From assembly GCA_013822735.1 (NCBI GenBank), contig PNKZ01000005.1, forward strand, positions 1 through 64,000: 64,000 nt of DNA. The letters run 5' to 3'. The notes under the pieces are model-generated. The model made no database searches, had not been told where the DNA came from, and worked only from the letters and a program-made list of their open reading frames with translations. The translations under genes and the position numbers were made by a program. Below, one piece after another: positions 2,599 to 46,247 of this stretch; the stretch's first letter is position 1; the number at the start of each line of letters is the position of its first letter. This DNA comes from Pirellula sp. GTDB lineage: Bacteria; Planctomycetota; Planctomycetia; Pirellulales; PNKZ01.

Positions 2599-3141
2599 CT
2601 ATTTGTGGTCTGCATGTCCCTCTTTACCGTCTTCGTGCTCGAGCTTGCCGCGAAATTGTTTGCCGCCGATCGTTAAGACCAACTCGGCGTCGGCGCCTTC
2701 CGCGTCGAGGTCTCCGGCAAGCTCTTTATCGGCCGAGAAGAAACGCGACGACTTCCCCGTCGATTCTCCGGCATCGGGCTTGGCCGCGATTTTGAACTGC
2801 TCGGCTTTGCCGTCGTGTTTGAGATTTACGACGACTTCCGCGGCTTCGATCGGGACGGCTATCTTCGCGGTACCGTCGAGTACGTAGAACGTGACTTCGC
2901 CGGCCTTATCGTCGTGGACTAATTCGACATGATATTCTTCTTTGCCGAGTTCGATCAAATGGCCGCCGTGCGGACCTTCGCTGGCGTGCTCGCCTCCGGC
3001 GTGAGGCGCCGCTTTGCCGGCTTCCGGCTTGGGGGCCGTTGCGGGACCACAACCAGCGAGCAGAAGGGCGCCGGCGGTGGCGACGACGGCACAGCTAATA
3101 CGAGCGGAACCGAGTGTAAGAATAGAAAGTACGGCGTGCAT
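2599..3141 (-). CDS. Metal-efflux-associated lipoprotein, His-rich
   Basis: A 180-residue lipoprotein at the end of the RND efflux operon. The start at 3141 is chosen because GGAG lies six bases upstream; the frame is open further upstream but lacks a site. Residues 1-33 form a lipoprotein signal with lipobox LLAGC. His-containing patches follow (HAGGEHASEGPHGGH) and the C-terminus is GKEGHADHK. The middle is predicted to be beta-rich, with two similar acidic halves (EYHVELVHDDKAGEVTFYVLDG and a second one). Such small lipoproteins recur beside CusA/CzcA pumps in planctomycetes, so a periplasmic metal-binding or delivery role is likely. The gene starts 44 bases after the pump gene and is surely co-transcribed. 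Confidence 0.8.
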   Translation of the reverse strand: MHAVLSILTLGSARISCAVVATAGALLLAGCGPATAPKPEAGKAAPHAGGEHASEGPHGGHLIELGKEEYHVELVHDDKAGEVTFYVLDGTAKIAVPIEAAEVVVNLKHDGKAEQFKIAAKPDAGESTGKSSRFFSADKELAGDLDAEGADAELVLTIGGKQFRGKLEHEDGKEGHADHK

Positions 3142-3185
3142 GAGAATCTCCGGGGGAACAAAAAAGAAACGATCAGGACTAAGAG

Positions 3186-6100
3186 TCAATTAGAGTCGGC
3201 GCCGTGGACGTGAAGCGACGGCGCGACCTGCGAATGGTCTGCGGAATGGTCCAAATGTCTGGGCGGCGCCGGCGTATGAATGGCTTCGTCCAACTCATCG
3301 GTATCGCCCGCTTCGACTTGCTCCTCCGCATCGCGACGGCCGAACAACCAAAACAGCGCCGGATGGACGAAGAAATCGAGGAGCGTCGAGCTGATCAAGC
3401 CGCCGAGGATTACCGTGGCGACAGGGTAGAGGATTTCCTTGCCCGGTTCTCCGGCGGCCAACACCAGCGGAATGAGGGCAATGCCCGCGGTGAGCGCCGT
3501 CATGAGCATCGGCGCCAACCGTTCCTTGCCGGCACGTTCGATCATCTGCGGCGTGAACTGTTCGCCTTCGTAACGCACCAAGTGCAGATAGTGGGCAATG
3601 AGCAGGATGCCGTTGCGCGAGGCGATGCCGGATAAAGAAATGAATCCGACCATGCTGGCGACGGTGAGCGACTGGCCGGTGACGACGAGGGCGGCCACGG
3701 CGCCGATTGCCGCCATCGGTAGCGCGGAAAGCACTTGGAGCGCCATGTTCACGGAGCGGAACAGCGTATAGAGCGCCAGGAACATGGCCGCGAGCGAGAT
3801 CAAGCTGAGCAGCCCGATCATACGCGTGGCGTTCTTTTGACTCTCGAATTGTCCGCCGTATTCTACGAAGTAGCCGTGCGGCAAAGTTGCCTGAATCGGC
3901 GCCAAGCGCTTTTGAATGTCCGTGACGACGGAATTAAGATCGCGCCCCGCCGTATTGCATTGCAAGATGATCCGACGGCGAACGTTTTCACGATTGATCG
4001 TGTTCGGGCCGCTGCTTTGATGCACCTCCGCGACCGCCGAGAGCGGTACGCGTCCGCCGCTCGGCAAGTTCAATGCCAGGCGCTGGAACTTCGCGGGATC
4101 TTGGCGAAACTCATCGTCCAGGCGTACGACGAGATCGAACTTTCGTTGTCCGAGCACAATCTCGGAGACGACCCGGCCGTTCATCGCCGTTTCGATGAAT
4201 TCGTTGACGTAGTCCGAAGTCATGCCGTTGACGGCCAATTGATCGCGATCGAGCTTGATCTGAAGCTGCGGGATCTCGACCTGTTGTTCTACCATCAAAT
4301 CCTTGACGCCGTTGACATCGGCGATCGCCGCTCGCATTTCTTCCGCTTTATTGCGGAGCACGGTGAGGTCGTCGCCGTAGAGCTTGATGCCGACTTGCGC
4401 CTTCACGCCGGAGAGCATGTGACTGATCAGATGCGCCAGCGGTTGCTCGACGGCGATCACTACGCCGGGGACTTGCGACAGCTCTTCCCGCATTTCTGCG
4501 AGCACTTCTTCGCGTGATTGGCCCGATTTTGCGTTGAGACTCACGATGATCTCGGAAACGTTCACCCCTTCGGCATGTTCGTCGAGTTCGGCGCGTCCGG
4601 TGCGGCGCCCGAAGGCGAGCACCTTGCCGTCTTGCTGCATCTTTTTGAGGCGATTGTCGACCATGCCCGCGATGTGGTTCGATGTAGCGAGAGACGTGCC
4701 CGGCGGTAAAAGGACGTTGACTTGAACGCTTCCTTCGTTGAACGGCGGTAAGAAGTCGCGGCCCAGTTGTGTAACGGTGATCAAGCTCAAGACTACGGCA
4801 GCGGCGACCGCTCCCAGTATCGGCCACGGGTGACGTACGCTCAGCCGAATGGCGAATCCGGCGATGCTCTTGAGGATTCGAACCAGCCAGCCGTCTTTCT
4901 CATGCTCCATAACCTTGGCCTGCGGCAGCAGCCAATAGCTCAAGACCGGCGTCACGGTAAGCGAGACGATGAGCGAAGCCAAGATCGAGACGATGTACGC
5001 CACGCCGAGTGGTGTGAAGAGTCGCCCTTCCATGCCGCCGAGCGCAAACAACGGTACGAAGACCAGCACCACGAGGATCGTGCTGAACACGATTGAGTTC
5101 CGCACTTCGCTGCTGGCTTCGTAAACGACGCGCAACGCCGATTTAGGTTGCGCCGCGTGAGCATTCTCGCGGAGCCGGCGAAAGATGTTCTCCACATCGA
5201 CGATGGCGTCGTCGACCAATTCGCCGATCGCCACGGCCAGGCCGCCGAGGGTCATCGTGTTGATCGACATGTCGAACCACTTGAAGACTAGGCCCGTCAC
5301 GACGATCGAAAGCGGAATGGCCGTGAGGGTGATGAAGGTCGTGCGGAAGTTCAGCAAGAAGAGAAAGAGAATGATCACGACGAGAATACCGCCGTCGCGG
5401 AGTGCTTCGATCACGTTCTGAATACTGAGATCGATGAACACCTTTTGCTGATAGACTTCGGTATTTACTCGAAAGTCGGCAGGCAGCGAAGGCTTGAGCT
5501 CCTCGATCGCCTTCACCACGTCGTCCGTGAGCTTGCGCGTGTCGGCGCCGGGCTGTTTGGAGATTGTCAGAATGACGGCCGGTGACCCGTCGACTGCCGC
5601 GTCGCCGCGCTTGACCTGCGCCGCTTCCGCAACTCGCGCTACCTCGGACAACAACACGGGCCGTTCACCTGATCCTTTTACGACGACGCGTTCGAGTTCG
5701 CTGACATCCTGGATTCGGCCCAGCGAACGTACGAGCAGTTCGTTGCCGCCTTGATCGAGATACCCGCCGGTGGCGTTGGAATTGCTGGCGGCGACGGCCT
5801 TCTCAACATCTTCGAGCGTGAGGTCGTACTTCAAAAGCTGGTCGGGATTCACCAAAACTTGAAACTGCTTCCGGCCCCCTCCCATCGTCACCACTTGGGC
5901 CACGCCGGGGATCGTCAGCAATCGCTGCCGGACCAGCCAGTCGGCCGTCGTGCGCACTTCGATCGGGTCGGTTTTCCCTCCCTCGCTCCACATGCCAATC
6001 TGCAGGATCTGCCCCATGATCGACGAGATCGGGGCCAATTGCGGTCGCACGCCTTTCGGCATCCGATCGCCGGCAAGGGCAATCTTCTCGGCGACGATTT

Positions 6101-6422
6101 GCCGATCGACGTAAATGTCGGTCCCCCAGGCAAACTCGACATAGATCACCGAGAGGCCGACCCCCGACGAACTACGAACCGCTTGCACGCCGGTCGCTCC
6201 GTTGAGCACCGACTCCAGCGGAAACGTGATGAGCGTCTCCACTTCTTCCGGCGCGAGGCCCGGCGCTTCAGTCATGATGGTGACGCGCGGGCGATTCAAG
6301 TCGGGAAAGACGTCGATCGGTAGATGCGCCAGCTCGTATCCGCCGTAGCAGATTGCGACGAGCGCGAGCGAAATCGTGAGGAGGCGGTAGCGGAGCGAAA
6401 AACGAATAACGGCGTTGAGCAT
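3186..6422 (-). CDS. CusA/CzcA-family heavy-metal RND efflux pump
   Basis: The inner-membrane proton-driven pump of a tripartite metal exporter, 1078 residues, the usual length for this family. It has the classic start (one membrane helix, then LPIDVFPDLNRPRV), a periplasmic porter region, the central membrane block with the charged GELVDDAIVDVENIFRRLREN motif typical of the metal-type RND branch, a second porter region and a last membrane block containing ASRNGILLIAHYLHL. The C-terminal tail is His-rich (HLDHSADHSQ and HVHGADSN), suggesting metal sensing or binding. The adaptor gene ends 50 bases upstream and the lipoprotein follows. Substrate (Cu/Ag, Zn/Cd/Co) cannot be read with certainty; the His-rich partners argue for divalent cations. 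Confidence 0.95.
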   Translation of the reverse strand: MLNAVIRFSLRYRLLTISLALVAICYGGYELAHLPIDVFPDLNRPRVTIMTEAPGLAPEEVETLITFPLESVLNGATGVQAVRSSSGVGLSVIYVEFAWGTDIYVDRQIVAEKIALAGDRMPKGVRPQLAPISSIMGQILQIGMWSEGGKTDPIEVRTTADWLVRQRLLTIPGVAQVVTMGGGRKQFQVLVNPDQLLKYDLTLEDVEKAVAASNSNATGGYLDQGGNELLVRSLGRIQDVSELERVVVKGSGERPVLLSEVARVAEAAQVKRGDAAVDGSPAVILTISKQPGADTRKLTDDVVKAIEELKPSLPADFRVNTEVYQQKVFIDLSIQNVIEALRDGGILVVIILFLFLLNFRTTFITLTAIPLSIVVTGLVFKWFDMSINTMTLGGLAVAIGELVDDAIVDVENIFRRLRENAHAAQPKSALRVVYEASSEVRNSIVFSTILVVLVFVPLFALGGMEGRLFTPLGVAYIVSILASLIVSLTVTPVLSYWLLPQAKVMEHEKDGWLVRILKSIAGFAIRLSVRHPWPILGAVAAAVVLSLITVTQLGRDFLPPFNEGSVQVNVLLPPGTSLATSNHIAGMVDNRLKKMQQDGKVLAFGRRTGRAELDEHAEGVNVSEIIVSLNAKSGQSREEVLAEMREELSQVPGVVIAVEQPLAHLISHMLSGVKAQVGIKLYGDDLTVLRNKAEEMRAAIADVNGVKDLMVEQQVEIPQLQIKLDRDQLAVNGMTSDYVNEFIETAMNGRVVSEIVLGQRKFDLVVRLDDEFRQDPAKFQRLALNLPSGGRVPLSAVAEVHQSSGPNTINRENVRRRIILQCNTAGRDLNSVVTDIQKRLAPIQATLPHGYFVEYGGQFESQKNATRMIGLLSLISLAAMFLALYTLFRSVNMALQVLSALPMAAIGAVAALVVTGQSLTVASMVGFISLSGIASRNGILLIAHYLHLVRYEGEQFTPQMIERAGKERLAPMLMTALTAGIALIPLVLAAGEPGKEILYPVATVILGGLISSTLLDFFVHPALFWLFGRRDAEEQVEAGDTDELDEAIHTPAPPRHLDHSADHSQVAPSLHVHGADSN

Positions 6423-6472: not shown

Positions 6473-7876
6473 TTAGTGGTTGTGTCCTGCGTGCGGATCG
6501 ATTGCGCCCCCCGACTTGTTCTTCAGCGCCAATTGCATCTGCTGCGCGCCGGCGAGTACCACGGCATCTCCCGGAAAAACGGCGCCGTCGTTGGCAATGA
6601 TCACCCAGAAGCGATCCCGATATTCGACGTGGATTGGACGCCGATCGAAATGGTCGCCATTGGGTAAAAATACGTAAGTCTCTACGCCGTCTTGCGCCAG
6701 GGCATCGACCGGCAGCACGATTCGCTCTTTCCATTGCTCGACGGGAACGGTCACTTGTACGCGCTGGCCCGGCTTGTAGCGCCAACTGATGAAGCGATGC
6801 CCGTCGGCCCCCTTGAGGTCTCGGAGTAAGGTGTTGGGAAGCGTGGCGTAGAAATGGAAGGTGCGAGTTTCGGGATCGACGTTGCCCGCGACGTAAAGAA
6901 TCTTAAGCCCCGAGATGACCTGAGGTTGGGATTCTTCCGACTCGATCGTCGCTTGAACCGTCCAGTTGTTTTCAACGGCTCGGTTCACGGAAGCGACGTC
7001 CTTATCAAAGGCACTCCCTTCAATGAACAGCATGGCATGATCGGTGAGCACCGCCAAGGCTTCACCGGCGTTGACGTTTTGGCCGCGGGCAATTTTAAGT
7101 TGTTGGATTTCGTAGCTGGTATCAGCGGGCTCTTTGTCCGACGTGCTCGTCGCACGATCATCAGGAACGACGACGGTAAGGGTTCGCAGCAAGGTTCGCT
7201 TCGCCAATATTTCGTTTACCTGCGATTCATTGAGTCCGTGCAAGAGCAGAGCCTGATGCTGAGCACGAAGAACGGCCTGTTTGTTCTGTTGTTCGTACTG
7301 CCGTTCCAATACTTGTCTACCTGAAATCCCTCCATCGACGGCGATCTTTTCCAATCGCTTGATCTCTCGTTCGACTACGTCCAATTCTTCCGCGACGCGG
7401 AGGAAATCTCCTTGAGCTTGCACGAGCTCTTCATGCGTTAGGCGCATCTCGAAAAGCTTTTGGCCGGGGAGCACCGCTTCGCCCTCGATCGGGTAGATCT
7501 GCGTTACGATACCCGTCAGCGGCGCAGTGATTTCGACCGTCGAGCGGCCCGGACGCTCGCGCACCATGCCGGGAATGGTGATCGTACGATCGAAGGTCGT
7601 CAGCTCGACCTTGCCGAGCTTTAAGCCAATGTTGGCTTGAGCTTGCTTGCTGAGCTCGATCGAATTCGCTGAATTGTGTCCGGCATGGTCGTGTCCGGCA
7701 TGAGCGTCCGGCTCTTCTGGATGATTCTCGCCCCCTTGCTCAGTCGCCTGATTTTTACTGACGGCGTTCAGTAGACGTTCCCGAAAGGAAGGAGTTGCCC
7801 CAACGACGACGGCGGCGGCAATGATTAACCACGGCAATCCGATGAAGAGACGGCGCATAAAAGTTCGCATAATCAT
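6473..7876 (-). CDS. RND efflux periplasmic adaptor (CusB/CzcB type)
   Basis: The membrane-fusion protein linking the pump to an outer-membrane channel, 467 residues from ATG 7876 (AAGG lies eight bases upstream; a second ATG at 7870 is possible). One N-terminal membrane anchor (LFIGLPWLIIAAAVVV) is followed by a His-rich stretch (DAHAGHDHAGHNS). Then come a lipoyl-like half (VEITAPLTGIVTQIYPIEG), a helical hairpin about residues 160-240, the second half and beta-barrel domains. The C-terminus ends DPHAGHNH. The His-rich ends are typical of metal-dedicated adaptors and may pass metal to the pump. No outer-membrane channel gene is seen nearby; the channel must be supplied from elsewhere. Confidence 0.93.
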   Translation of the reverse strand: MIMRTFMRRLFIGLPWLIIAAAVVVGATPSFRERLLNAVSKNQATEQGGENHPEEPDAHAGHDHAGHNSANSIELSKQAQANIGLKLGKVELTTFDRTITIPGMVRERPGRSTVEITAPLTGIVTQIYPIEGEAVLPGQKLFEMRLTHEELVQAQGDFLRVAEELDVVEREIKRLEKIAVDGGISGRQVLERQYEQQNKQAVLRAQHQALLLHGLNESQVNEILAKRTLLRTLTVVVPDDRATSTSDKEPADTSYEIQQLKIARGQNVNAGEALAVLTDHAMLFIEGSAFDKDVASVNRAVENNWTVQATIESEESQPQVISGLKILYVAGNVDPETRTFHFYATLPNTLLRDLKGADGHRFISWRYKPGQRVQVTVPVEQWKERIVLPVDALAQDGVETYVFLPNGDHFDRRPIHVEYRDRFWVIIANDGAVFPGDAVVLAGAQQMQLALKNKSGGAIDPHAGHNH

Positions 7877-8095
7877 GCTCGAATCCTTACTACAAACGGG
7901 CGTTTCGTCGCACGGGCGACGTCTAAATTCAGGGCGCATCGGGATTTTGGGCCCGAATGTATTTCGGCGGAACGCGTTGCGATTGGCGCGGAACATCCTC
8001 CCTCGCGCAATCGAAATTGGTCACGGATCGTGACTCAGGACGAAAGAAAGTCGAGTTCGGCCTTAGGCCGACGGCTCGACAAAGTCCTAACGGCT

Positions 8096-8557
8096 CTAAA
8101 TTAAGAGCAGTTGATGTAAAAGATGGAGGCGTAGCGGTGGTACGACATCCAACGCGCTTCGGATCTCCCACCGACGACAAACAAATTCGCCGGCGAGTTG
8201 CGCAGCAACGTCCGGCGCCAAAAATCCAATGGCGAACGCGTCACGAAGCGAATCGATCTGGATGCGATCGGTCGAAACGAAAGTGCACCGATCGTCGCAC
8301 GAGTCCTGATGGGGTACGGAAGATTCGTGTTCCCGGTCGTCGGCTGAGTCCGCCGCCTCCGTAACCGGTTCGGGCTGATCAAGCTGTCGACGGCAACATT
8401 GTCCGACGATTGCCGAGGTCATCGCCCCCGACTCTTGAACTTCCGCCGGATGGTCGGCGGCATGGGCGATCGCATCGTGCGCATGATGCCAGCAACAACC
8501 CAGCAATGTATGCAGGGCCAAAACTGTTGCGATTAGGTAAGTTACAATCGAGCGCAC
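8096..8557 (-). CDS. Small exported Cys/His-rich protein, first gene of the metal-efflux operon
   Basis: A 153-residue protein starting at a GTG (8557) with GGA eight bases upstream. It has a hydrophobic N-terminus ending LLGCCWHHAHD, then a Cys/His/acid-rich middle (VGQCCRRQ, HQDSCDDRC) and a conserved-looking end (PPLRLHLLHQLLLI). It is paralogous in plan to the protein at 20464-20886, which has the same signal end (ALGCCRMRD), Cys pairs and terminal RLHVSYQIFLI. Position directly before the adaptor gene, 220 bases away, suggests a metal-binding or metal-sensing role in the periplasm. No named family is known to me. Confidence 0.65.
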   Translation of the reverse strand: MRSIVTYLIATVLALHTLLGCCWHHAHDAIAHAADHPAEVQESGAMTSAIVGQCCRRQLDQPEPVTEAADSADDREHESSVPHQDSCDDRCTFVSTDRIQIDSLRDAFAIGFLAPDVAAQLAGEFVCRRWEIRSALDVVPPLRLHLLHQLLLI

Positions 8558-11721: not shown

Positions 11722-11732
11722 TCGGTCGGCTC

Positions 11733-13693: not shown

Positions 13694-16293
13694 ACGCGAC
13701 TGTCCGCCATTTCGTCGGTCGAAGCCGCTCTTGCGCCGGCGGTATAATCGGCGGCGCGCAGCAGCGACTCTAAATACGCCAAACCCCAGCGCCCGTAACG
13801 GCGTTGCAAGCGAGCAAACCGTCGAGGGACGGCATCCGCCAACGCTTGTGCATCTCCGAACGGAAGGTCCGGGTCGAATGCTTCGTCGGGAGAAAAATGA
13901 GGTCGTCCTCGACCGTGATGCGCGGCGATTACGTGAAGAACGAGTTGTTGAAGATCTGCCTTCAGACGCGCGAAATCCGGCTGATGCGAGACGTCTGCCA
14001 AAGAACCAAACTCGTGTCGATAGATCTCGCGCGAACCAAAAGCATTCGTTCGTCGTCCCGCTTTGGCGAGGAGCACGGAGCTCTCCCGGTTCCCCAATAT
14101 GTTCTGAAATATTCGGCGTTGCTTTCCAAGATCGTGATGGCGCGCCGCCACCATAACGGCGTCACGGAGTCCGGCGGAAATAGGGAGCCGCTGAACAATA
14201 TTTTCCATCGATCGCACGACGTCTGCCGAATGCTTTTCCCAAAGTACCGCCTGAGGAGCGGTCTTGGAGCCGTCGTTATCGGCCGCGTCGGGCGACTCAT
14301 ACCAATTCCAGAGTCGTCGAACGGAAGCAAGTTTGGCCGAGCCGACGCTCTCCTCGACCTCCGGCCGGAGATCGATCGTACGAATGAGTCGCATACCGTC
14401 GTCGCCGCCCTGCTCATCCCAAAGTCGTTGTCGGCGACGACGTTCGTTCTCCGTTCGCCACTCGGATGAAACGTCGTTCGCGAAGGCCGCCGCGCCGTCG
14501 AGAAAGCCGTCGCGAAGGCCGCCCACGGCAGGAGAAAGGAGTACTACTCGATCATGAATCCGCTCCTTCTTAAGGTCGTGGGTAAGTTTACGCAGCGTGA
14601 CTACTTCAATGGAACCGTCCTCGTCGATGATCCAAACGTTTCCACCGGGATGCCGTTTCGCCAGTTGTCGCAGACTTTTAAATACCCGTTCGCTCCGATC
14701 GCGAAGCAGCTCAAAAGACTTAAGCGGGTAATCCTCGATCAAGCAGGCGGGATCGTTCGCGACGGTCAAGTCGCCTGTGATAAGCGTCACTTCATCTCGC
14801 CACCCGACTTGGGTTGTCGGAGACTCCCATTCGCTGACGCCGCGCAAAAAGGGCGTCACAGGAGGGCGTCCCGGCAAATTTCTCGATAAGGAAGTGAGCG
14901 CCCAGGAGTCCAACAGAATGTCCGACGTTTTCGGTATCTTCGGCAGCGGACCAAAGGCGCGAAGCACCGCCTCGGACTTGCTCTTCGCCAATTTGGCCAG
15001 AGCCTTCGGACTCCCGTCTCCGTCAAGAGATTTTAGCAACGCAAGCGTGCGCGCGCGCCGGGTTTCCATTCTTTCGTCGCCGTCAAACTTCTGCGGGTGA
15101 ACGATCTCGATTCGCGTACCGGTGCGATCGCCAAAGCGGTTTGCCCTCCCTAATCGTCGCACCATGATTTCATACGTCGCTAAATCGCAAACAAGATCGT
15201 CGCCCGAAAGGTTCGCGCCGACTTCGCCCGCTCGAGTACAAACGAGATAGACCGTTCCTGCGGCGGGAGTTACTTCCGGGTCACGACTCAGTACAGGCAA
15301 GAAGCGTTGAAATATCTGCGATCTCAAGGACTGGTCGCGTTCCCTGCCGCGCATCGCTTCCGTCAGAATCTGCACACGGCCCTGGGGAAGTTTTGCGGCA
15401 ATTCGCTCGACATCTTCCAGGCGGCGCATAATGACGATCACGGCCCGATCGACGCCCTCGCGCAATTCGGCCAGTTCGACTGCCCTCTCCGCGAGCTGTC
15501 TTTCTTCCTCGATCTCATGAAAGGCGATCGTTTTCTTTGCGCCGATCCGCTTCTTGACGATCGGATTCCTCTCGTCGGCCGCAGTCAGCGAAAATGATGG
15601 GCCATCACCAGACGAGACGGAATTAAGCTCCATAAAGCGTAAGGGATATAAGTCCTTCGTCCGTGCCCGAACTGGGACGTATTCGTCCGCCCCCGTGGAT
15701 CGGCCGCCCCGTTGTGCGCGTGCGACGGCGTGCAATAACTTTCCGAATGCAGGCTCTAGTTGGGCGTCATCATGTACAACCAGTACGTCTTGGCCGAGAA
15801 ACGCCGCGTGGAGAGGTTTCGACTTGAACGTGAGACCGTGTCCGCTGAAGAGCAGCCGGCTGCCGATCATATCGGTCGTACCACAAATCACGGCAGGCTG
15901 CGACGGATCGGCCGACCAAGCGGGATCTTCGGCGAACGTCCCGCGCAAGGTGCTAATCGCAAGCGAGCGAAACTTATTTAGGACGCCGCGCAGTTGAGGT
16001 TTTTCTAACCAATTGGTGCGAATCTTTTCCGCCTCTTCGGTGATTTGATCGACGATCGTGTGACGGTTGACCGCATAAGCCAGACGTCGCGGCACGTTCT
16101 TGTTGCCGTTCGCCAGGGCAATCAACCAAATTGCCACGACGGCAGTCTTGCCTAAGCCTGTGGGCAAAGTGCACGAAGGTGGAAACTTCCCCCGTACAAA
16201 CCAATCTCGATACAGCGCAAGTTGCCAAGGCAACGGCTTAAAGCCGGTCAATTCGTAAAACGTTGTTTCAAATCCTCGATCTCTCGCGGACAT
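13690..16293 (-). CDS. cas3: Type I-G Cas3 helicase-nuclease (GSU0051 family), C-terminal HD domain
   Basis: The target-degrading helicase-nuclease, 867 residues from ATG 16293 (GAAAGG upstream). The order is helicase first (Walker A LPTGLGKTAV near residue 44, later RRLGRANRFGDRTG motif VI) and HD nuclease last (ARHHDLGKQRRIF near 730, then VIAAHHGRGRPHF), the arrangement of the GSU0051 branch. One oddity: the DEAH-type box reads VVHDDAQLEPAF, so both the usual Glu and His are changed (DEAH to DDAQ), which might weaken ATP hydrolysis. The HD residues look intact. It leads the cas operon and overlaps csb3 by ATGA. Confidence 0.92.
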   Translation of the reverse strand: MSARDRGFETTFYELTGFKPLPWQLALYRDWFVRGKFPPSCTLPTGLGKTAVVAIWLIALANGNKNVPRRLAYAVNRHTIVDQITEEAEKIRTNWLEKPQLRGVLNKFRSLAISTLRGTFAEDPAWSADPSQPAVICGTTDMIGSRLLFSGHGLTFKSKPLHAAFLGQDVLVVHDDAQLEPAFGKLLHAVARAQRGGRSTGADEYVPVRARTKDLYPLRFMELNSVSSGDGPSFSLTAADERNPIVKKRIGAKKTIAFHEIEEERQLAERAVELAELREGVDRAVIVIMRRLEDVERIAAKLPQGRVQILTEAMRGRERDQSLRSQIFQRFLPVLSRDPEVTPAAGTVYLVCTRAGEVGANLSGDDLVCDLATYEIMVRRLGRANRFGDRTGTRIEIVHPQKFDGDERMETRRARTLALLKSLDGDGSPKALAKLAKSKSEAVLRAFGPLPKIPKTSDILLDSWALTSLSRNLPGRPPVTPFLRGVSEWESPTTQVGWRDEVTLITGDLTVANDPACLIEDYPLKSFELLRDRSERVFKSLRQLAKRHPGGNVWIIDEDGSIEVVTLRKLTHDLKKERIHDRVVLLSPAVGGLRDGFLDGAAAFANDVSSEWRTENERRRRQRLWDEQGGDDGMRLIRTIDLRPEVEESVGSAKLASVRRLWNWYESPDAADNDGSKTAPQAVLWEKHSADVVRSMENIVQRLPISAGLRDAVMVAARHHDLGKQRRIFQNILGNRESSVLLAKAGRRTNAFGSREIYRHEFGSLADVSHQPDFARLKADLQQLVLHVIAAHHGRGRPHFSPDEAFDPDLPFGDAQALADAVPRRFARLQRRYGRWGLAYLESLLRAADYTAGARAASTDEMADSRV

Positions 16294-17036
16294 AGCCGAC
16301 CTTTCGTGACACCCGGCAATAAATGTGACGAGCTCAAACTGCCGTAATGACCGCGCACCTTTCAAAGTTCTTTGATCGGCACCGTTGCCTCTTTGAGGCG
16401 GACGTCGGAAAAATCGTCGACGTCCGCCAGCATCTGCCGGTACGGCTCGTCGCCAACCGGGCGGCCGATTATAAGGTCAGTCTATGGAATCGCGAACCGT
16501 CCTTAGATCTCCATACAATTGAAGCGAAGCCGAAAGGAATCGTTTTGATGGTAAACGTCTTCGCTTCGTCGTCGCCGACGTTTAGACGTGATATGCACGG
16601 CTTCCGCACATTCTCTTCAGATCGCCGCTTCCTCGCCCCGACCTTCGATTTCCTAGAGGGCGCTCGATCTCCAAACGACCATCGGACTTGCTTGGAATGC
16701 CTCGTCATCCGCGACGTCGCGGAAGCCGCGAGACAATCGGAGAATAGGACTCCGTCCTAGTATCGCCGGGTCGTAGGTAGCGTACGTTCAGACAATTTAC
16801 TTCTTGTTTCGCCCGTTGCGACTTTCGGAATAAGCATCGGACTTCTCTGAAACGGTTTCGCGTGTCATCGCGATCGCGAATGGCGATCTCGCGGCCAATC
16901 ATGTCCCGGGAATCACGCGATTCGTAGTCGTTAATTTGCTTCCTCTTGCACCGGGATGGTAGTGTGACTCCGGAACACGGACGCAAACAAGCGTCTTATT
17001 TTGAGCCCTGCACCATGACGCCACGTGACGAGAGCC
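16294..17036. other. Region upstream of cas3, no supported gene
   Basis: About 740 bases between the divergent cas operon and the metalloprotease gene. No cas1, cas2 or cas4 coding sequence is seen on either strand, and no array. A minus frame at 16469-16708 (79 codons) has no ribosome site or known motif. The cas operon promoter should lie within 16300-16450. Confidence 0.5.
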
Positions 17037-20463: not shown

Positions 20464-20886
20464 ATGCGAATTCTTATCGGAATCTTGCTGCTGTTTGCAA
20501 TGCTCGCGCACGCGGCCTTGGGCTGCTGCCGTATGCGTGATAGCGAAGCTTGCGACAGGCATTCGCACGAGCAGTCGACTCGATCGCACTGCCGGCATCA
20601 ATGCAACGAGTCGAATTCATCTTCATCTCGCCCCGCTGAAGAAGTTTCGTGGCCGGCGCCTGCGCACGACCACGCCTGCTGTTGCCGAGGCGACTGCCAG
20701 TCGTTGCCGATGCATCGAGTGAAGGTGGTTAATCCGCCAACCGATGTGCGCATCATCCTAGCCCCGCCGAATGCGCTGCCGCGATTTGCGATTCTCGCAA
20801 AGGCCGACTGTGACCGATATTTTGATTCGCATAGGGCGGCGCCGGCAGTCCGTCTACACGTCTCTTATCAGATATTTTTGATCTGA
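20464..20886 (+). CDS. Small exported Cys/His-rich protein, paralogue of the one at 8096-8557
   Basis: A 140-residue protein starting at ATG 20464 (a TTG directly precedes it). The signal region ends AHAALGCCRMRD, followed by a Cys/His/Ser-rich middle (CDRHSHEQ, HCRHQCNES, HDHACCCRGDCQ) and the terminal RLHVSYQIFLI. The same plan occurs in the first gene of the metal RND operon (8096-8557). Many Cys and His in an exported protein suggest metal binding. It is on the same strand as the SulP, phosphatase and metal-ATPase genes beyond, which fits a metal-stress setting. Family not recognised. Confidence 0.65.
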   Translation: MRILIGILLLFAMLAHAALGCCRMRDSEACDRHSHEQSTRSHCRHQCNESNSSSSRPAEEVSWPAPAHDHACCCRGDCQSLPMHRVKVVNPPTDVRIILAPPNALPRFAILAKADCDRYFDSHRAAPAVRLHVSYQIFLI

Positions 20887-21234
20887 TTCTTCCCGTCGAA
20901 CGGTGTTCGTGAACGAACGTGTCGCATCGACGGCTAGCTCCGTTCGGCTCGGCCTCAAGTCCCTCGTTCGACATTGATGGGCAAGCGTTGTCCGCGCCGG
21001 CCGTTCTTCATCGGCTGTTGATCCCATCACTGCAACGGACGCCGGGAACAAGGCGACTGCTTCTTCAATCCCGACGGTCATCGGCCGCCGCGTGACGCAC
21101 CACGCAAACTATTAGTCGTCGTGGTATCGACCGTCGATGGGCGACGCGACTTCTGCAAGCAGATTCATAACGCCTGGTCTTGGCCGTTACACCCTCGTCA
21201 CGGCTCGAAGAAACGAAGGATAACGGACCATCTC

Positions 21235-23496
21235 ATGATGCCAGCAAACTATTTGTCGGGGACGGTTCCACGCGACCTCACGGCAGGCCTGGTCGTATTT
21301 CTCGTGGCGCTGCCGTTATGTTTGGGTGTGGCGCTGGCTTCGGGAGCCCCGTTGCTCTCGGGAGTACTTTCGGGGATCGTCGGTGGAATCGTGGTTGGAG
21401 CGATAAGTCGCTCTCAGACGAGCGTTAGCGGGCCGGCGGCGGGCCTAGCTGCAATCGTGATGGCGCAAATCGCCGAGCTGAACTCGTTTCCCGCCTTTTT
21501 GATGTCCGTGGTGATCGCCGGCGTTATCCAGATCGTGCTGGGCGCGGTAAGGGCCGGATTTATCGCCGACTTCGTCCCCTCCAGCGTGATCAAGGGACTG
21601 CTCGCCGCAATCGGCGTCATCTTGATCTTGAAACAGATTCCTCACCTGTTGGGGCATGACGCCGATCCGCAAGGCGACATGGCCTTCCAGCAACCGGATA
21701 ACGCCAACACCTTTACCGAACTCGCGCGAATGTTTGGACATGTTCACTTCGGCGCCGCGGTCATCGGTTTGCTTTCCGTTGCGCTGTTGGTGTTCTGGGC
21801 CCGTTACAAGCCGGTGAAAAATTCCGTGGTCCCGGCGCCTTTGGTCGTCGTCTTGTTCGGACTGGGGCTCAGCGCGCTGTTTCAACGAATCGGCGGCGCT
21901 TGGGCGATTGAGCCGAGTAATTTCGTGCAAGTGCCGGTAGCCGACAGCCTGACAGGTTTCCTGGCATTGTTGCAACGACCCGACTTTTCGCAATGGTCCA
22001 ATCCGGCCATCTACACCGCCGGCCTCACCATCGCCGCCGTGGCCTCCTTAGAAACACTGCTGAATTTGGAGGCGGTCGACAAGATCGACCCTCAGCAACG
22101 CACCTCGCCTCCCAGCCGAGAGCTGCTGGCTCAGGGCGTCGGAAACGTCGTCGTCGGATTAATCGGCGGCATTCCGATCACTTCGGTGATTGTCCGCAGC
22201 TCGGTCAACATCAACTCAGGTGCCCGTACGAAGCTCGCGACGATAGTGCATGGATTGTTGCTGCTGATCAGCGTCGTGTTCCTACCGCTTTGGTTGAACA
22301 AGATTCCGTTGTCGAGTTTGGCGGCGATTCTGCTGGTCACCGGGTTCAAGCTCGTCAGCCCGAAGCTAATCGTGCAGATGTGGCGGGAAGGGCGCTACCA
22401 GTTCGTACCTTTCGCACTGACGGTAATCGCCATCGTTTTTACCGACTTGCTCATTGGCGTCTTGATCGGACTAACGGTGAGCGTCAGCTTTATTCTCAAC
22501 AGTAATCTGCGCCGTCCGATCCGTCGCTTCGTCGAGAAACATCTCGGCGGCAACGTGCTGCATATTGAACTGGCTAATCAGGTCAGCTTTCTAAATCGCG
22601 CCGCACTGCTCCGAGTGTTGGAAACGATTCCGCGCGGCGGTCACGTGTTGTTCGACGCACAAGACACGGACTATATCGATCCGGACGTCTTGAGTCTAAT
22701 CCGCGACTTTCAGGAGCAGACGGCGCCGGCGCGCGGCTTGACGGTCAGTCTCCTTGGATTTCGCAGCAAGTATCAGCTTCACGATCAAACGCAGTATGTG
22801 GACTACTCCACGCGCGAACTTCAAAATCGACTTACGCCTCAGCAAGTACTGCAAATCCTAACCGACGGCCATAATCGGTTCCGCACCGGTCAACGCCTGA
22901 CCCGCGATCTAGGCCGGCAAGTTCGCTCCACTTCCGACGGACAGCATCCCCTGGCCGTGATCCTTAGTTGCATCGATTCGCGCGCACCGGCCGAATTAAT
23001 TTTCGATCTGGGGTTGGGCGATATCTTCGGCATCCGTGTCGCGGGCAATATTCTCAGTCGTGAAGTGCTCGGGAGCATGGAGTATGCGTGCGCCATAGCC
23101 GGAGCCAAGCTGATTCTCGTCATGGGGCACACGCGATGCGGCGCCGTGAGCGCGGCAGTCGATTTGGCTCGCTCGACGGAGAACGCCGGCGACGCGACCG
23201 GCTGCGAGCACTTGGAGTCGATCGTCACGGTCATTCAACAATCGGTCGATCCGCTCGCTTGTCGCAATCTCGGAGAAGTTCCGGAAGCCGAAAAGCGAAA
23301 CTTTGTCGATGCGGTCGTGCGGGCCAACGTCGCACGCGTCACGGAACTAGTCCTCCGGCAAAGTCGAATGCTGAACGACCTGCACCGGGAGGGAAAGGTG
23401 GCGATCATCGGCGCCGTTTACGACGTCGCCGACGGCGGCATCGAGTTCCTGCCCCATGCGGACAAGTGCGTTGAAACTCCCGAATCCCGCAACTGA
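21235..23496 (+). CDS. SulP-family anion transporter fused to beta-carbonic anhydrase
   Basis: A 753-residue fusion. The N-terminal two-thirds are a SulP/SLC26 transporter (many helices from DLTAGLVVFLVALPLCLGVA, the GLIGGIPITSVIVRSSVN segment, then a STAS-like part with HVLFDAQDTDYIDPDVLSLI). The C-terminal third is a beta-class carbonic anhydrase with zinc residues in SCIDSR (Cys579, Asp581, Arg583) and GHTRCGA (His632, Cys635). The fusion suggests bicarbonate uptake or export with direct CO2/HCO3- conversion at the membrane. Upstream in-frame codons back to 21121 are open, but AAGGA about 14 bases before the ATG-ATG pair favours 21235. The gene runs nearly into the phosphatase gene (29-base gap). 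Confidence 0.92.
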   Translation: MMPANYLSGTVPRDLTAGLVVFLVALPLCLGVALASGAPLLSGVLSGIVGGIVVGAISRSQTSVSGPAAGLAAIVMAQIAELNSFPAFLMSVVIAGVIQIVLGAVRAGFIADFVPSSVIKGLLAAIGVILILKQIPHLLGHDADPQGDMAFQQPDNANTFTELARMFGHVHFGAAVIGLLSVALLVFWARYKPVKNSVVPAPLVVVLFGLGLSALFQRIGGAWAIEPSNFVQVPVADSLTGFLALLQRPDFSQWSNPAIYTAGLTIAAVASLETLLNLEAVDKIDPQQRTSPPSRELLAQGVGNVVVGLIGGIPITSVIVRSSVNINSGARTKLATIVHGLLLLISVVFLPLWLNKIPLSSLAAILLVTGFKLVSPKLIVQMWREGRYQFVPFALTVIAIVFTDLLIGVLIGLTVSVSFILNSNLRRPIRRFVEKHLGGNVLHIELANQVSFLNRAALLRVLETIPRGGHVLFDAQDTDYIDPDVLSLIRDFQEQTAPARGLTVSLLGFRSKYQLHDQTQYVDYSTRELQNRLTPQQVLQILTDGHNRFRTGQRLTRDLGRQVRSTSDGQHPLAVILSCIDSRAPAELIFDLGLGDIFGIRVAGNILSREVLGSMEYACAIAGAKLILVMGHTRCGAVSAAVDLARSTENAGDATGCEHLESIVTVIQQSVDPLACRNLGEVPEAEKRNFVDAVVRANVARVTELVLRQSRMLNDLHREGKVAIIGAVYDVADGGIEFLPHADKCVETPESRN

Positions 23497-23524
23497 CTTC
23501 CCATCCACGCGCTGCGGCGGAAAG

Positions 23525-25027
23525 ATGAATTCCGGCTTAGAAAACTTGCCCGTTCCCGAAACGAAGAAACCGCCGCGCGCCTTGTGGCGACGTTGGTCGA
23601 TCAGCACTCAATTGCTGTTGGCCGTCAACGTACCGCTCGCGCTGGCGCTCGGGCTGTTGCTCGCGCTCGACTACCGTCGTGAGATGCGAGACGCAATCGC
23701 TGAAAAACATGCCGGGCTGAACGAAGAAGCGATGATGATCTATCGCGGACTCTATTATCTCGGGCAACGTGAAACTCCCGAAGCCATCCAACGCTACATC
23801 GACTCGGTTTGCAGTCATATGCAAGAGTCGCAGTCGCCCGGCCATCGCATCGCCGTTCGTTGGCGCGGCGGACTGCTACAGGCGCAGCCCGGCCAAGGCA
23901 GTACTCCGGATATTCTGGAGACGATGCAAAGAGCCGCCCAGTCGCCCGACTATTTAGCCTCCTTGGGTGACGAAACGTTAGTCGTCGGGCAGTTTTCCGG
24001 GCGCGGAGTTCACGTGTACGTCTCCGAGTACACGACAAGCATTCGACGATCAATTCGCCAGAACATTCTTTACCATTTGGGGTCACTCGTCGTCCTAGCG
24101 CTTGTGGCGGCTTCGATCGTCAATCCCGTGCTTTGGCGAATTGTGACGCGTCCGATGCGAAGGCTTTCGCGAGGGGTCGCTCGCGTCGCTGCAGGAGAGT
24201 ACGGCGTTCCCGTGGGCGACTTCCATAGCCGGGAGTCGAAGGAGCTGTCCGAGGCGATTGAAACGATGAGCGCCGCCCTGTCGGCCAACGAACTGCAACA
24301 TCGCGCTCAGATGGCTCAGGCGAAAAAGATTCAAACACACCTTCTGCCTCAAGTCATCCGGATTGACGGACTGGATCTCGCTAGAGTGTTTGCGCCGGCT
24401 GATGCGGTCGCCGGCGATTACTACGATTTAATTCGACTGCCGGACGACACGTGGCTTATCTGCGTGGCGGACGTGACCGGTCACGGCATACCTGCCGCCT
24501 TCGGTTCCGTAATTCTCAAAACGGTATTGTTGAGCGCCGCCGAACATCAATTCGAACCGGGCCGAATCTTGCAATACGTCAATCAGCGCTTAACAGTGCT
24601 GTTGCCGGATCAATTCGCTTCGATGTTTCTCGGTCGGTGGGTGCCCGCGTCGCTTCGTTTCAACTATGCCAGCGCCGGCCACGAGCCGGGCTTACTGATC
24701 TCTCCGGAAGGAAAAATCCGTTTGCTGAAGGCGACCGGTCCTCTATTGGGGATTGACGATGCGATGTCCTGGGACACGGAGGCCGTCGATTTACTACCAG
24801 GTGAGAGAGTGCTTCTGACGACCGACGGAGTCGCGGAAGCCGGCACTCCCGACGCTCAATTGTTCGGCAGAGAGCGGCTGGCGAAGGTCGTCGAGGATTG
24901 CATCGACCTTACGCCGCAGGAGACCGTGCAAGCGATTCACGGGGCGATCCTCGAACATCAAGCGGGCGAACGGCCGACGGATGATTTGACGATTCTGTTG
25001 ATGGAATCCAAGCGTCTCGTCATCTGA
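23525..25027 (+). CDS. Membrane-bound HAMP-SpoIIE (PP2C-type) phosphatase
   Basis: A 500-residue signalling phosphatase of the RsbU/SpoIIE type. It has an N-terminal membrane helix (LLLAVNVPLALALGLLLALD), a periplasmic sensor region of about 140 residues, a second helix (LGSLVVLALVAASIVNPVLW), a HAMP linker and the phosphatase domain from about residue 280. The metal-binding start VAGDYYDLI and the CVADVTGHGIPAAF motif are intact, and the end TDDLTILLM is typical. Such enzymes release partner-switching anti-sigma systems in response to stress. The ATG at 23525 lies 29 bases past the SulP stop, so the two are probably co-transcribed and might sense carbon or pH; this is inference. GGAAAG sits just upstream. 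Confidence 0.9.
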   Translation: MNSGLENLPVPETKKPPRALWRRWSISTQLLLAVNVPLALALGLLLALDYRREMRDAIAEKHAGLNEEAMMIYRGLYYLGQRETPEAIQRYIDSVCSHMQESQSPGHRIAVRWRGGLLQAQPGQGSTPDILETMQRAAQSPDYLASLGDETLVVGQFSGRGVHVYVSEYTTSIRRSIRQNILYHLGSLVVLALVAASIVNPVLWRIVTRPMRRLSRGVARVAAGEYGVPVGDFHSRESKELSEAIETMSAALSANELQHRAQMAQAKKIQTHLLPQVIRIDGLDLARVFAPADAVAGDYYDLIRLPDDTWLICVADVTGHGIPAAFGSVILKTVLLSAAEHQFEPGRILQYVNQRLTVLLPDQFASMFLGRWVPASLRFNYASAGHEPGLLISPEGKIRLLKATGPLLGIDDAMSWDTEAVDLLPGERVLLTTDGVAEAGTPDAQLFGRERLAKVVEDCIDLTPQETVQAIHGAILEHQAGERPTDDLTILLMESKRLVI

Positions 25028-25076: not shown

Positions 25077-27533
25077 ATGTCCGACAAAACACGAATTGAA
25101 GTTTCATTACTACTGCCGACCGTTTCCGACGCGCGCGACCGGTGCCTTCAACGCTTGGGCGAGTTGCTGAAAGTAAAAGCGGGAATCGAGTCGACGCACG
25201 TGCCGGAAATCAAAGACGGGCAAGTCACCGAGATCTGCATCCACTATGATCCCGAGCAGCTGTCGATCGGCGACGTGCGCGAACTGGCCAAGCGCGCGGG
25301 CGCGGAACTGAACAGCCGCTTCGGTCATCTCTTCGTACAAACGGAGTCGATGCACGCCCGCAAAGCTCACTCCGTCGAAGCGCAGATCGAAAAGCTATCC
25401 GGTGTTTTGGACGCCGACGTTTCCGCGACCGGAGCGCTGCGGATCGAATTTGATCGGAAGGTTACCGATGAAAGCGCCGTGCGAGCGGCCTTGCGCAAAA
25501 TCAATCTCAAAGTCACTGAAGACCGTCGAACGACGCCGCCCCCGACAGAAACGGCGAAGGCCTCGAACGAACGCGATGAACAACACGATCATGAGCACGG
25601 CGGGCCGTTCGGTGAGCAATCGGAACTGATCTTCGCGCTCGTTTGCGGCGGCTTGCTGCTCGTCGGATGGCTGTTGTCGATCTCGACGACCGTAACGACC
25701 TGGGCGCCGTGGGGGCTGTATGTGGCGGCCTACTTCTTCGGAGGCTTCTTCACCGTTCGTGAGGCCGTCGAGAATATCCGGGCCGGTCGATTTGAAATTG
25801 ATTTCTTGATGCTGGTAGCGGCGGTCGGAGCCGCCACGCTCGGTGAGTGGGCGGAAGGCGCACTGCTGTTGTTTCTCTTCAGTCTCGGGCACGCCCTGGA
25901 ACACTACGCGATGGGGCGCGCCAAGCGGGCGATTGAAGCGCTCGCCGAGCTCGCACCCCCGACGGCGCTTGTCCGGCGAAACGGGAAAGAAGAGAACGTT
26001 CCGGTCGAGCAACTCCGGGCAGGCGAGATCGTCATCGTCAAACCGAACGAGCGCATTCCCGCGGACGGCTTCGTGGTCAAAGGCGAGAGCAGCGTTAATC
26101 AAGCTCCGATCACCGGCGAAAGCGTGCCAGTGGACAAGCGTCCCGTCACCGATCCGCAGCAGGCGGCGGCCAATCCGGATCGTCTCGACGCGCAGTATCG
26201 CGTCTTCGCCGGAACCATCAACGACAGCGGCGCATTGGAGGTTCAAGTCACGAAGCCGGCCACCGAATCGACGCTGGCCCGTGTCGTTCAAATGGTGCGC
26301 GAGGCGGAAACTCAAAAATCTCCTACCCAGCGCTTCACCGACAGATTCGAACGCTACTTCGTCCCGTTTGTTCTGGGATTCGTCGTGTTGCTCCTGTTTG
26401 CCGGCTTCGTAGTCGACGAACCGTTCAGCGCCTCATTTTATCGCGCCATGGCGGTCTTGGTCGCGGCCAGCCCTTGTGCGTTGGCTATTTCCACTCCTAG
26501 CGCCGTTCTGAGCGGCGTGGCGCGCGCCGCGCGAGGCGGCGTGTTAATCAAAGGAGGCGGACCGCTGGAAAGCCTGGGCACGCTGAGCGCAATCGCCTTC
26601 GATAAAACGGGTACGCTGACGGAAGGAAAGCCGCGACTTACCGACGTCGTGGCCGCGACGGGCGCCTCGGAGGAGGAACTACTGCGCGTCGCCGTCGCCG
26701 TCGAACGTCTAAGCGACCATCCGCTCGCGGCAGCCGTGCTCCAAGGGAGCAAAGAACGACTAAAGAGCGCCCCCGCAGGAGAGGCCCATGACGTCGAAAG
26801 TATCACTGGTCGCGGCGTCAAAGCCACGGTGGACGGTCAGCCGGTTTATATCGGCAAAGAGAAGCTGTTCGCGGAGGTAGGCGGCGCCCCCATACCGGAA
26901 GCGCTGCGCGCCGACGTTGAAAAACTGAAGGCGAGCGGACGTACGACGATGATTGTCCGCCGCGGCGACGCCTATCTGGGCGTGCTGGGCCTGATGGACA
27001 CGCCGCGCGAAGCCGCCAAGGACGTGATCACGCGGCTTAAGGGATTGGGCGTGCGAAGAATGATTATGCTCTCCGGCGACAATCAACAAGTCGCCGTTGC
27101 CGTCGCCGGTGCCGTCGGAATTCAAGAAGCCTGGGGGGACTTGATGCCGGACGACAAAGTCCAATCAATTAAGAAACTCCGCGCCGAAGGAGGTGTCGCC
27201 ATGGTCGGCGACGGCGTCAATGACGCGCCCGCGATGGCGAACGCTACGGTCGGAATCGCCATGGGGGCGGCGGGTTCCGACGTCGCGTTGGAAACGGCGG
27301 ACATCGCGCTCATGGCGGATGACCTAAATCATCTCCCTTTCGCCGTCGGTTTGAGCCGACAAAGCAGTCGAATCATTCGCCAAAATCTTTGGTTCAGCCT
27401 CGGAATGGTCGCATTTCTCGTGCCTGCGACAGTTTTCGGACTGGGAATCGGTACCGCGGTACTGCTCCATGAAGGATCGACGTTGCTCGTCGTATTTAAC
27501 GCACTACGTCTTTTGGCCTATCAAACCCGATGA
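25077..27533 (+). CDS. P1B-4-type heavy-metal-transporting ATPase
   Basis: An inner-membrane metal export ATPase, 818 residues. It has the transmembrane SPC motif (Ser465-Pro-Cys467) and a late HEGST, features of the P1B-4 group (Co, Zn or Fe), not the CPC motif of Cu or Zn/Cd pumps. Phosphorylation site DKTGTLT is at Asp509, with GDGVNDAP downstream and SDHPLAAAV in the nucleotide domain. The N-terminus carries two HMA-like domains that lack the CxxC motif (residues 5-75 and about 95-150), then a His-rich linker (DEQHDHEHGG). It starts 50 bases after the phosphatase gene and is probably in the same transcript. Substrate is inferred from motif only. Confidence 0.9.
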   Translation: MSDKTRIEVSLLLPTVSDARDRCLQRLGELLKVKAGIESTHVPEIKDGQVTEICIHYDPEQLSIGDVRELAKRAGAELNSRFGHLFVQTESMHARKAHSVEAQIEKLSGVLDADVSATGALRIEFDRKVTDESAVRAALRKINLKVTEDRRTTPPPTETAKASNERDEQHDHEHGGPFGEQSELIFALVCGGLLLVGWLLSISTTVTTWAPWGLYVAAYFFGGFFTVREAVENIRAGRFEIDFLMLVAAVGAATLGEWAEGALLLFLFSLGHALEHYAMGRAKRAIEALAELAPPTALVRRNGKEENVPVEQLRAGEIVIVKPNERIPADGFVVKGESSVNQAPITGESVPVDKRPVTDPQQAAANPDRLDAQYRVFAGTINDSGALEVQVTKPATESTLARVVQMVREAETQKSPTQRFTDRFERYFVPFVLGFVVLLLFAGFVVDEPFSASFYRAMAVLVAASPCALAISTPSAVLSGVARAARGGVLIKGGGPLESLGTLSAIAFDKTGTLTEGKPRLTDVVAATGASEEELLRVAVAVERLSDHPLAAAVLQGSKERLKSAPAGEAHDVESITGRGVKATVDGQPVYIGKEKLFAEVGGAPIPEALRADVEKLKASGRTTMIVRRGDAYLGVLGLMDTPREAAKDVITRLKGLGVRRMIMLSGDNQQVAVAVAGAVGIQEAWGDLMPDDKVQSIKKLRAEGGVAMVGDGVNDAPAMANATVGIAMGAAGSDVALETADIALMADDLNHLPFAVGLSRQSSRIIRQNLWFSLGMVAFLVPATVFGLGIGTAVLLHEGSTLLVVFNALRLLAYQTR

Positions 27534-40452: not shown

Positions 40453-41037
40453 GGTCGTTTCCTCAAGCTTGAGTGCCGCGCTCGTCGCCATCGCTACAAA
40501 GCGGTAGATGTCGCAGACATCCGCCAATCGAATTGCCGTGACGCTTATCATCGTTATCGAACGCCCGAAGCGTTGCCGTTATGTGACGCTGTTGCACCCA
40601 TAAAATCGGTACAACTGCGTCCGCGTGAAGCCGTAGGGAGGATGTCACAGAGCGCATTATCAAGAATCTAAATAATCCGCGTTCCATCGCGCGAGGCTTC
40701 TTCCTCTTCGGGGCGAAGCGGCTAATTGAGAGAATGTTTACGCCATCGGCGCCCGCGAGGCGGTCACTTCGCACCTGAACGAGCTCGCCAAAAGTCAGCA
40801 GTCGTCAGGTGCCGGTTACCGTAGAACAGACGTGACAACGTTCATCTCACTAGGATTCATAATGCATTTTGCGAGGACTTGGCGCTCGCCGCCGAAGTAA
40901 CCGATGCCTCGAAGACTAGGGGCTCGGGCAACAGTCGCAGTTGCCACTCAAACCCTGCGACGCCGACAAATGCGACTCGGTGGGACGGCAGCCCACGGCT
41001 TCAGGCCTCGCAAAGCGTAGTCGAAAGAAGCCGCCAT
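40453..41037. other. Intergenic flank left of the transposon, no supported gene
   Basis: About 590 bases between the His-rich gene and the candidate transposon left end. I see no gene. The promoter of the minus-strand His-rich gene should lie just past 40452. Confidence 0.45.
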
Positions 41038-42390: not shown

Positions 42391-42424
42391 GACCTCGACT
42401 CTCACTTCGAAAGGATGGGCCCAC

Positions 42425-45153: not shown

Positions 45154-45186
45154 TTCCAACTTCCACCTATCTACGAGGAGACCAAC

Positions 45187-46245: not shown

Positions 46246-46247
46246 TC

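Follow-up and report, generated by a model that had tools for sequence, protein, structure and literature searches.

P0001 and P0002, two short Cys/His-rich proteins encoded in the window (the whole stretch of DNA analysed here, 64,000 nucleotides of a Pirellula sp. contig), belong to one family, and the balance of the evidence favours reading them as leaders of metal-transport operons that would act as nascent exported metal sensors, not as a metal store, and would resemble CutF and CruR in their working. The family, its anatomy, its constant internal spacing, its stop-anchored C-terminal motif, its first place in operons and the composition of the gap that follows it were all computed directly; the case for a leader gene is built on the stop-anchored motif, a linker of constant length without conserved sequence, the first operon place and a long, purine-poor gap. 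The features of the window that bear on this reading are collected in Table 1.

Table 1. Features of the two window loci, with positions in the window, strand and the basis of each assignment.
Feature	Position	Strand	Basis
P0001, putative leader-type exported Cys/His-rich protein, 140 aa	20464..20886	+	translation; leave-one-out profile E 3e-15
P0001 Gly-Cys-Cys, residues 20-22, predicted end of export signal	20521..20529	+	sequence
P0001 Cys pair C73-x4-C78; second Cys to C-terminus 62 residues	20680..20697	+	sequence and family spacing
P0001 C-terminal motif RLHVSYQIFLI, abutting the stop codon	20851..20883	+	sequence, C-terminal matrix
Untranslated gap from P0001 to inferred SulP start (start codon inferred from sequence); Y 0.537, first 234 nt 0.560	20887..21234	+	
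SulP-type anion permease fused to carbonic anhydrase, first gene after P0001	21235..23496	+	PF00916 E 4.5e-61, PF00484 E 1.1e-34
HAMP-SpoIIE phosphatase	23456..25027	+	PF07228
Heavy-metal P-type ATPase with SPC and HEGST motifs	25077..27533	+	TIGR01525 596.6 bits vs cut-off 346.25
P0002, putative leader-type exported Cys/His-rich protein, 153 aa, GTG start	8096..8557	-	translation; profile without P0002 E 1.7e-23
P0002 residues 16-28, HTLLGCCWHHAHD, predicted end of export signal and His/Cys cluster	8474..8512	-	sequence, family alignment
P0002 Cys pair C87-x3-C91; second Cys to C-terminus 62 residues	8285..8299	-	sequence and family spacing
P0002 C-terminal motif RLHLLHQLLLI, abutting the stop codon	8099..8131	-	sequence, C-terminal matrix
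Terminator-like hairpin (outer stem, inner hairpin, then UUUCUUU), starting 15 nt after P0002 stop	8035..8090	-	z -2.12
Untranslated gap from P0002 to inferred CusB start, 219 nt	7877..8095	-	
CusB-type periplasmic adaptor of RND metal pump	6473..7876	-	PF16576 E 9.2e-16; TIGR01730 below cut-off
CusA/CzcA-type heavy-metal RND pump	3186..6422	-	TIGR00914 790.8 bits vs cut-off 701.45
His-rich lipoprotein-like protein, fourth operon gene; no family match	2599..3189	-	

A family of short Cys/His-rich proteins and its anatomy

The preliminary description had paired the two proteins on a common LGCC, Cys pairs and a terminal RLH...LI, and had proposed that they form an unnamed family of metal-binding exported proteins close to metal pumps. 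LGCC occupies residues 19-22 in P0001 and in P0002, the latter being encoded on the minus strand, a point that description leaves unsaid. A pairwise BLASTP comparison of the two finds no similarity (E = 15), so that the pair by itself proves nothing, and this blank is what speaks for two unrelated short secreted proteins that are both rich in Cys and His and are alike by composition only. Such a coincidence has next to no probability and is ruled out by leave-out profiles, searched against the 582 ORFs of the window and 4000 shuffled sequences: a profile built without P0001 recovers it at E 3e-15 (best shuffled sequence 0.19), and one built without P0001, P0002 and a paralog recovers P0002 at E 1.7e-23 and P0001 at E 1.8e-14, values of 2e-14 or better to be set against a best of 0.055 to 0.19 for same-composition shuffles over three leave-out runs. 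The C-terminal motif is an additional match, as a matrix built from it without P0001 and P0002 ranks the two first and second among the 582 ORFs (23.3 and 13.6 bits; the third scores 0.5). P0001 and P0002 are thus related beyond chance, and the resemblances from which the pairing began are confirmed by the sequences together with the leave-out profiles.

Used as single queries at E up to 0.01, P0002 and P0001 give matches in 32 and 29, respectively, of 248 genomes of the window's class, many of the P0001 matches being noise with internal stops; a 29-row profile extends the matches to 139 of 397 genomes of that class (E up to 0.001). A phylum draw of 294 genomes yields 18 with a match at E up to 1e-6, and all 18 come from the window's own class. 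At least 118 stretches in 84,980 species genomes fit a DNA pattern for G-C-C-W-H-H-x-H; 80 titled stretches among the pattern matches listed include 26 with a strong member (E below 1e-9), of which 25 are titled planctomycetes. Besides P0001 and P0002, the window's own genome has a third member, a paralog of P0002 that lies on contig 1. The same genome also contains a weak match (G000:C2:532893-533090, locus L401) that is similar in build to the leaders, a Cys-rich, exported-looking frame with the end ILYGVWRN and a Cys triplet about 69 residues from that end.

Neither P0001 nor P0002 matches a Pfam or NCBIfam family; the Pfam family DUF2946 gives no match to either at E up to 10 and none in 29 members at E up to 1. 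A known Pfam family as the identity of the group was rejected on a scan of the 29 members, which produced scattered weak hits, none common to the members, with a best E of 0.059. Literature searches on this family and on planctomycete leaders, made in the main text of papers, brought up the CutF and CruR papers, work on arrest peptides and general papers on planctomycete genomes, and found no description of it. The family is thus unnamed, as had been proposed, and the profile search that the preliminary description had called for returns many homologues.

The members follow one layout, in which a predicted export signal ending H-x3-G-C-C leads into a Cys/His-rich body, a Cys pair, a linker and a C-terminal motif anchored at the stop codon. 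No aligned member lacks G20, C21 or either Cys of the later pair (62 of 62), while H16 is kept in 60, H24 in 58 and H27 in 56; a hydrophobic N-terminus with G-C at its end is likewise found in 62 of 62 and points to putative export by the Sec route. The family spacing of the Cys pair is x3-4, and CXXC occurs in six of the 62. The C-terminal motif takes up the last 11 residues, with no extra residue before the stop, and has the consensus R-x-[HR]-[LA]-x-x-Q-V-[WL]-[LR]-[IL]; the final residue is I, L or V in 61 of 62 aligned members and in 88 of 93 of a larger set, position -3 is W, L or F in 61 of 62, position -4 is mostly V and position -5 mostly Q. Since all three kinds of stop codon are used (24, 20 and 18 times), the anchor is not a stop-codon word. 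A RAPP-like proline motif is absent from the last 20 residues of all 62 members. Without one, the C-terminal motif is, to our knowledge, like no known arrest peptide, which counts against the leader reading. Among 29 overlapping close pairs, dN/dS is 0.10 for the last 12 residues, 0.15 for the N-terminal part and 0.25 between them; the middle of the protein is therefore under purifying selection as well, and this too was counted against a leader.

The linker keeps a nearly constant length with no fixed sequence. From the second Cys to the C-terminus there are 63.2 +/- 3.1 residues (n=92, median 64), with 84 of 92 members within 60-67, whereas the stretch between G-C-C and that Cys is variable (sd 8.4). 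Across 44 disjoint nearest-neighbour pairs, linker length is unchanged in 24 and the length of the Cys-rich part in 10 (p 2e-4), the average difference within pairs being 1.75 residues for the former and 5.45 for the latter. Linker columns carry under 0.9 bit, that is, almost no sequence information, and a folded C-terminal domain was rejected on this ground; for P0002, a single-sequence model reaches a mean pLDDT of just 48, too low to decide anything. The spacing was also followed in 17 diverged leaders, which stand upstream of pumps in genomes or at loci that the first profile search passed over or gave a weak score. If the last 55 residues are set aside, the nearest preceding Cys lies 60-71 residues from the end in 13 of these leaders and not in the other four. 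L391-L393 in this set are near relatives, and the set was picked partly by a profile that includes the C-terminus, which leaves its motif scores in part dependent on that choice. When a transmembrane segment reaches SecYEG, its start is reported to be 40-50 residues away from the peptidyl-transferase centre (PMC7886326); a site some 64 residues from the end would on that scale sit just beyond SecYEG. A fixed length free of sequence is what would be expected of a tether measured out by ribosome and translocon together.

Operon position and the gap before the transporter genes

In 81 of 106 distinct members a same-strand CusB-type gene comes within 700 nt downstream, with an RND pump after it, a count that is not a random-sample rate, as the 100 regions were hand-picked from lists of profile matches (some as multi-copy genomes), and that takes in weak matches up to E 1e-3 and one cut copy (L187) of the L189 gene; when only full-length strong matches are kept, 80 of 93 stand upstream of CusB-CusA-type genes. 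A further 10 of the 106 have an RND pump within 8 kb without an adjoining CusB match, one of them (L130) with an adaptor that is HlyD_D23 by Pfam, and 15 have neither. Pfam identifies, among these 15, FtsX/MacB with an ABC ATPase (L116), an ABC ATPase (L186), P-type ATPases (L194, L209) and SpoIIE (L150). Beyond CusB-CusA, members thus also head operons of a second RND type, of FtsX/ABC transporters and of P-type ATPases. At L116, L147, L184, L189 and L196 members head a run of frames of about 260-330, 410 and 230 residues, the last two of which at L116 are the FtsX/MacB permease and the ABC ATPase; the ligand of this type of transporter may be a metal, since the run is headed by a member of the family.

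The association was also taken from the side of the pumps. Upstream of 43 RND pumps of at least 1328 bits in 118 genomes, for which coordinates were compared by eye, there is a clear member in 36 cases, a weaker one in two (E < 1e-6), a faint match and/or a fitting C-terminus in four and none in one. Among 11 more distant pumps, eight are preceded by a Cys/His-rich frame with an end that outranks 98.5% of 6155 background frames on the C-terminal matrix; two have a Cys-rich frame with a poor end fit and one has no frame. The window's genome has a further, more distant pump of the CzcA type on contig 8 (L398), and no leader is seen upstream of it. Nearly all the related pump operons surveyed are headed by such a gene, in some cases past the reach of the profile.

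Both window loci place the family next to metal transport, which bears out the nearness to metal pumps that had been noticed earlier: P0002 heads a CusB-CusA-type operon, a metal ATPase is the third gene after P0001, and in other genomes, too, metal efflux genes adjoin family members. A gene of the type found fourth in the P0002 operon is retained in most related CusBA-type operons. The first gene after P0001 is not a metal pump, which was counted against the leader reading. SPC and HEGST are marks of the cobalt/iron-type P1B-4 group of ATPases, and because the ATPase after P0001 carries both, P0001 may sense a metal other than that of P0002. Elsewhere in the window, the minus-strand frames 811-1500 and 39694-40551 encode two proteins that look exported and are rich in His, with runs such as QHHHH and HHGGHHGYSHHGG; neither is among the top window hits of the family profile. 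The minus strand also carries Type I-G CRISPR genes (10093-16365), of which Csb2 (TIGR02165) and Cas3g (TIGR02621) score over their cut-offs, with two frames between them, and the plus strand a run of frames (41560-48164) resembling a Tn7-like transposition set, in which the 43141-45153 product has weak IS481/IS3 transposase matches and is followed by frames that, by the look of their sequence, we take to be ATPase-like and TniQ-like.

With CusB start codons set by rule, the gap between leader and CusB measures 113-324 nt (median 169), as against a median of 33.5 between CusB and CusA. The gap is more than half pyrimidine in 80 of 81 cases, a share that falls to 43% for 63 control gaps taken from those loci (p 1.6e-16); it contains less A (0.168 vs 0.238), has more C than G in 88% of cases (controls 51%) and is more densely set with YC steps (p about 1e-6). 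Rho is encoded and the gaps are C-rich, a composition that fits a putative Rho loading region. Fold strength is no greater in these gaps than in control gaps (z -1.54 vs -1.72, p 0.79), on which account a conserved gap RNA structure was rejected as the main signal. The region around the CusB start is a little less closed than it is with shuffled gaps (9.15 vs 9.62 kcal/mol, p 0.008), so that a CutF-like hairpin over the ribosome-binding site is not supported. Terminator-like hairpins are mildly enriched (37 of 81 at -8 kcal/mol or lower vs 35% of shuffled gaps, p 0.04). Control-like folding, a slightly open CusB start and this mild enrichment together disfavour a single RNA mechanism and were also counted against the leader reading. 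The hairpin that follows P0002 has an equivalent arrangement after its paralog, with a different stem sequence (z -1.69), and the gap after P0001 folds no better than shuffled sequence (z -0.10), a further count against the leader reading. Among ten relatives the gap sequence diverges and the last codons retain protein meaning, the second ground on which a conserved gap RNA structure was rejected as the main signal.

A candidate nascent-chain sensor and its rivals

As proposed here, the hydrophobic N-terminus would send the growing chain to the Sec translocon. With the ribosome at the last codons, the C-terminal motif would occupy the tunnel up to the peptidyl-transferase centre, while the Cys pair, some 64 residues back along the chain, would just have emerged beyond the translocon. 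Metal on the H-x3-G-C-C-x-H-H-x-H cluster and the Cys pair could then alter the pull on the chain or its export, and the ribosome would accordingly pause or move on at the C-terminal motif. Whether it pauses would in turn decide between an end of transcription in the pyrimidine-rich gap, through Rho or through a hairpin such as that of P0002, and read-through into the pump genes. P0002 would govern its own RND pump operon, and P0001 that of the SulP-carbonic anhydrase, SpoIIE and P-type ATPase genes. From the sequences we infer export, metal binding, pausing and termination, and likewise the direction of the response and the metal.

The main rival, which we consider rather unlikely, is that these proteins are metal-binding lipoproteins, or periplasmic sponges or chaperones of the pump operon in a SilE/CusF-like role, whose C-terminus docks on the pump, inserts in the membrane or marks the protein for proteolysis. 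Proteins of the SilE/CusF type are His-rich or metal-binding exported periplasmic proteins found in RND metal-pump operons, and what sets the family apart from them is that Pfam and NCBIfam give no match. The invariant G-C (62 of 62) after hydrophobic residues looks like a putative lipobox, L-x-[GA]-C; the Cys/His content, the operon held in common with a pump and purifying selection along the whole protein agree with this rival, as does a predicted short C-terminal helix of modest confidence (pLDDT 61-75) in the single-sequence model. However, a sequence-free linker of fixed length has no obvious chaperone role, and a plain signal peptide would not be expected to carry a conserved His amid its hydrophobic residues, as 60 of 62 members do. 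Nor would a lipoprotein account for the first operon place and a gap of 113-324 nt where the following genes stand close together, or for unrelated transporters being headed by one family. The leader and lipoprotein readings could each be partly true. As for the metal-binding exported proteins of the preliminary description, the export-type N-terminus, the Cys/His richness and the tie to metal pumps speak for that idea; the anatomy, however, favours a leader gene over a metal binder that acts after export.

A regulator acting as a finished protein after export, for example a metal-loaded periplasmic protein working on a sensor kinase or a sigma/anti-sigma pair, would suit the tie to several kinds of metal transport operons; it explains neither why the distance to the C-terminus is so strict nor why the motif is anchored at the stop, and we regard it as very improbable.

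Should the leader reading hold, planctomycetes would widely control metal pumps by ribosome-bound proteins that sense metal outside the membrane, and the constant spacing would offer a natural gauge of how far the chain runs from the ribosome before it is outside the membrane. On this reading, the family points to a role for hundreds of short genes that lack annotation, and to transport operons that should respond to metals.

Comparison with CutF, CruR and arrest peptides

CutF and CruR have been shown experimentally to be nascent exported metal sensors in which translation, paused or released at a conserved end, controls the next genes (PMC9973294, PMC9426467), and arrest in vitro has been reported for CruR (PMC12992588). 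The family probably works in a like manner yet is a member of neither group, because there is no DUF2946 match, none of the 62 aligned members has a RAPP-like end and a proline pair is present in only 10 of the 62.

CutF of Rhodobacter capsulatus is, like the family, a short exported protein with metal motifs that heads a metal-homeostasis operon, including operons of the CusB/CusA type, and has a conserved C-terminal end (PMC9973294). It acts during its own export (PMC9973294), which for the family is predicted only. By the features used to recognise CutF-like proteins (PMC9973294), a proline pair in the last 15 residues is found in 10 of 62 family members (P0002 has one, P0001 none) and a length under 150 aa in 29 of 62; a place upstream of a metal-homeostasis gene, on the same strand and within 1000 nt, is the rule, with 81 of 106 standing before CusB-CusA-type genes. 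CutF needs a hairpin over the ribosome-binding site of the next gene (PMC9973294), whereas in the family this start region is not closed. The main text of the CutF paper does not name Planctomycetes (PMC9973294).

CruR, a DUF2946 protein of Bordetella pertussis, shares with the family the first place in a metal operon before a long gap. In both, a Cys motif and the C-terminal motif stand a nearly fixed number of residues apart, 45 in CruR (PMC9426467) and about 64 in the family. The Cys motif of CruR is CXXC where the family pair is spaced x3-4, RAPP lies close to the CruR C-terminus and is found in 0 of 62 family members, and the CruR operon encodes an uptake receptor where that of the family encodes a pump (PMC9426467). 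Copper-dependent Rho termination in the gap is described for CruR (PMC9426467); for the family, an encoded Rho and C-rich gaps are what the sequence offers. Control by CruR is reported to be independent of its signal peptide, and a few DUF2946 homologs are reported from Planctomycetes (PMC9426467); these are, as judged by the Pfam test, a different family from P0001 and P0002.

Arrest peptides of the SecM/ApdA type resemble the family in their conserved C-terminus, diverged N-terminal part and upstream-ORF position, but, unlike it, they need RAPP/RAGP-like proline motifs, and many control sec or yidC genes (PMC10987492, PMC12992588). It is possible, though somewhat less likely than not, that the family represents a new, proline-free class of arrest peptide, in which an 11-residue stop-anchored motif would pause termination and metal on the nascent chain about 64 residues away, just beyond the Sec translocon, would set hold or release, as a general, fast-evolving metal-pump switch across a whole planctomycete class. 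Sensing of this kind has so far been described for a few copper proteins of other phyla; here it would operate with a different end motif.
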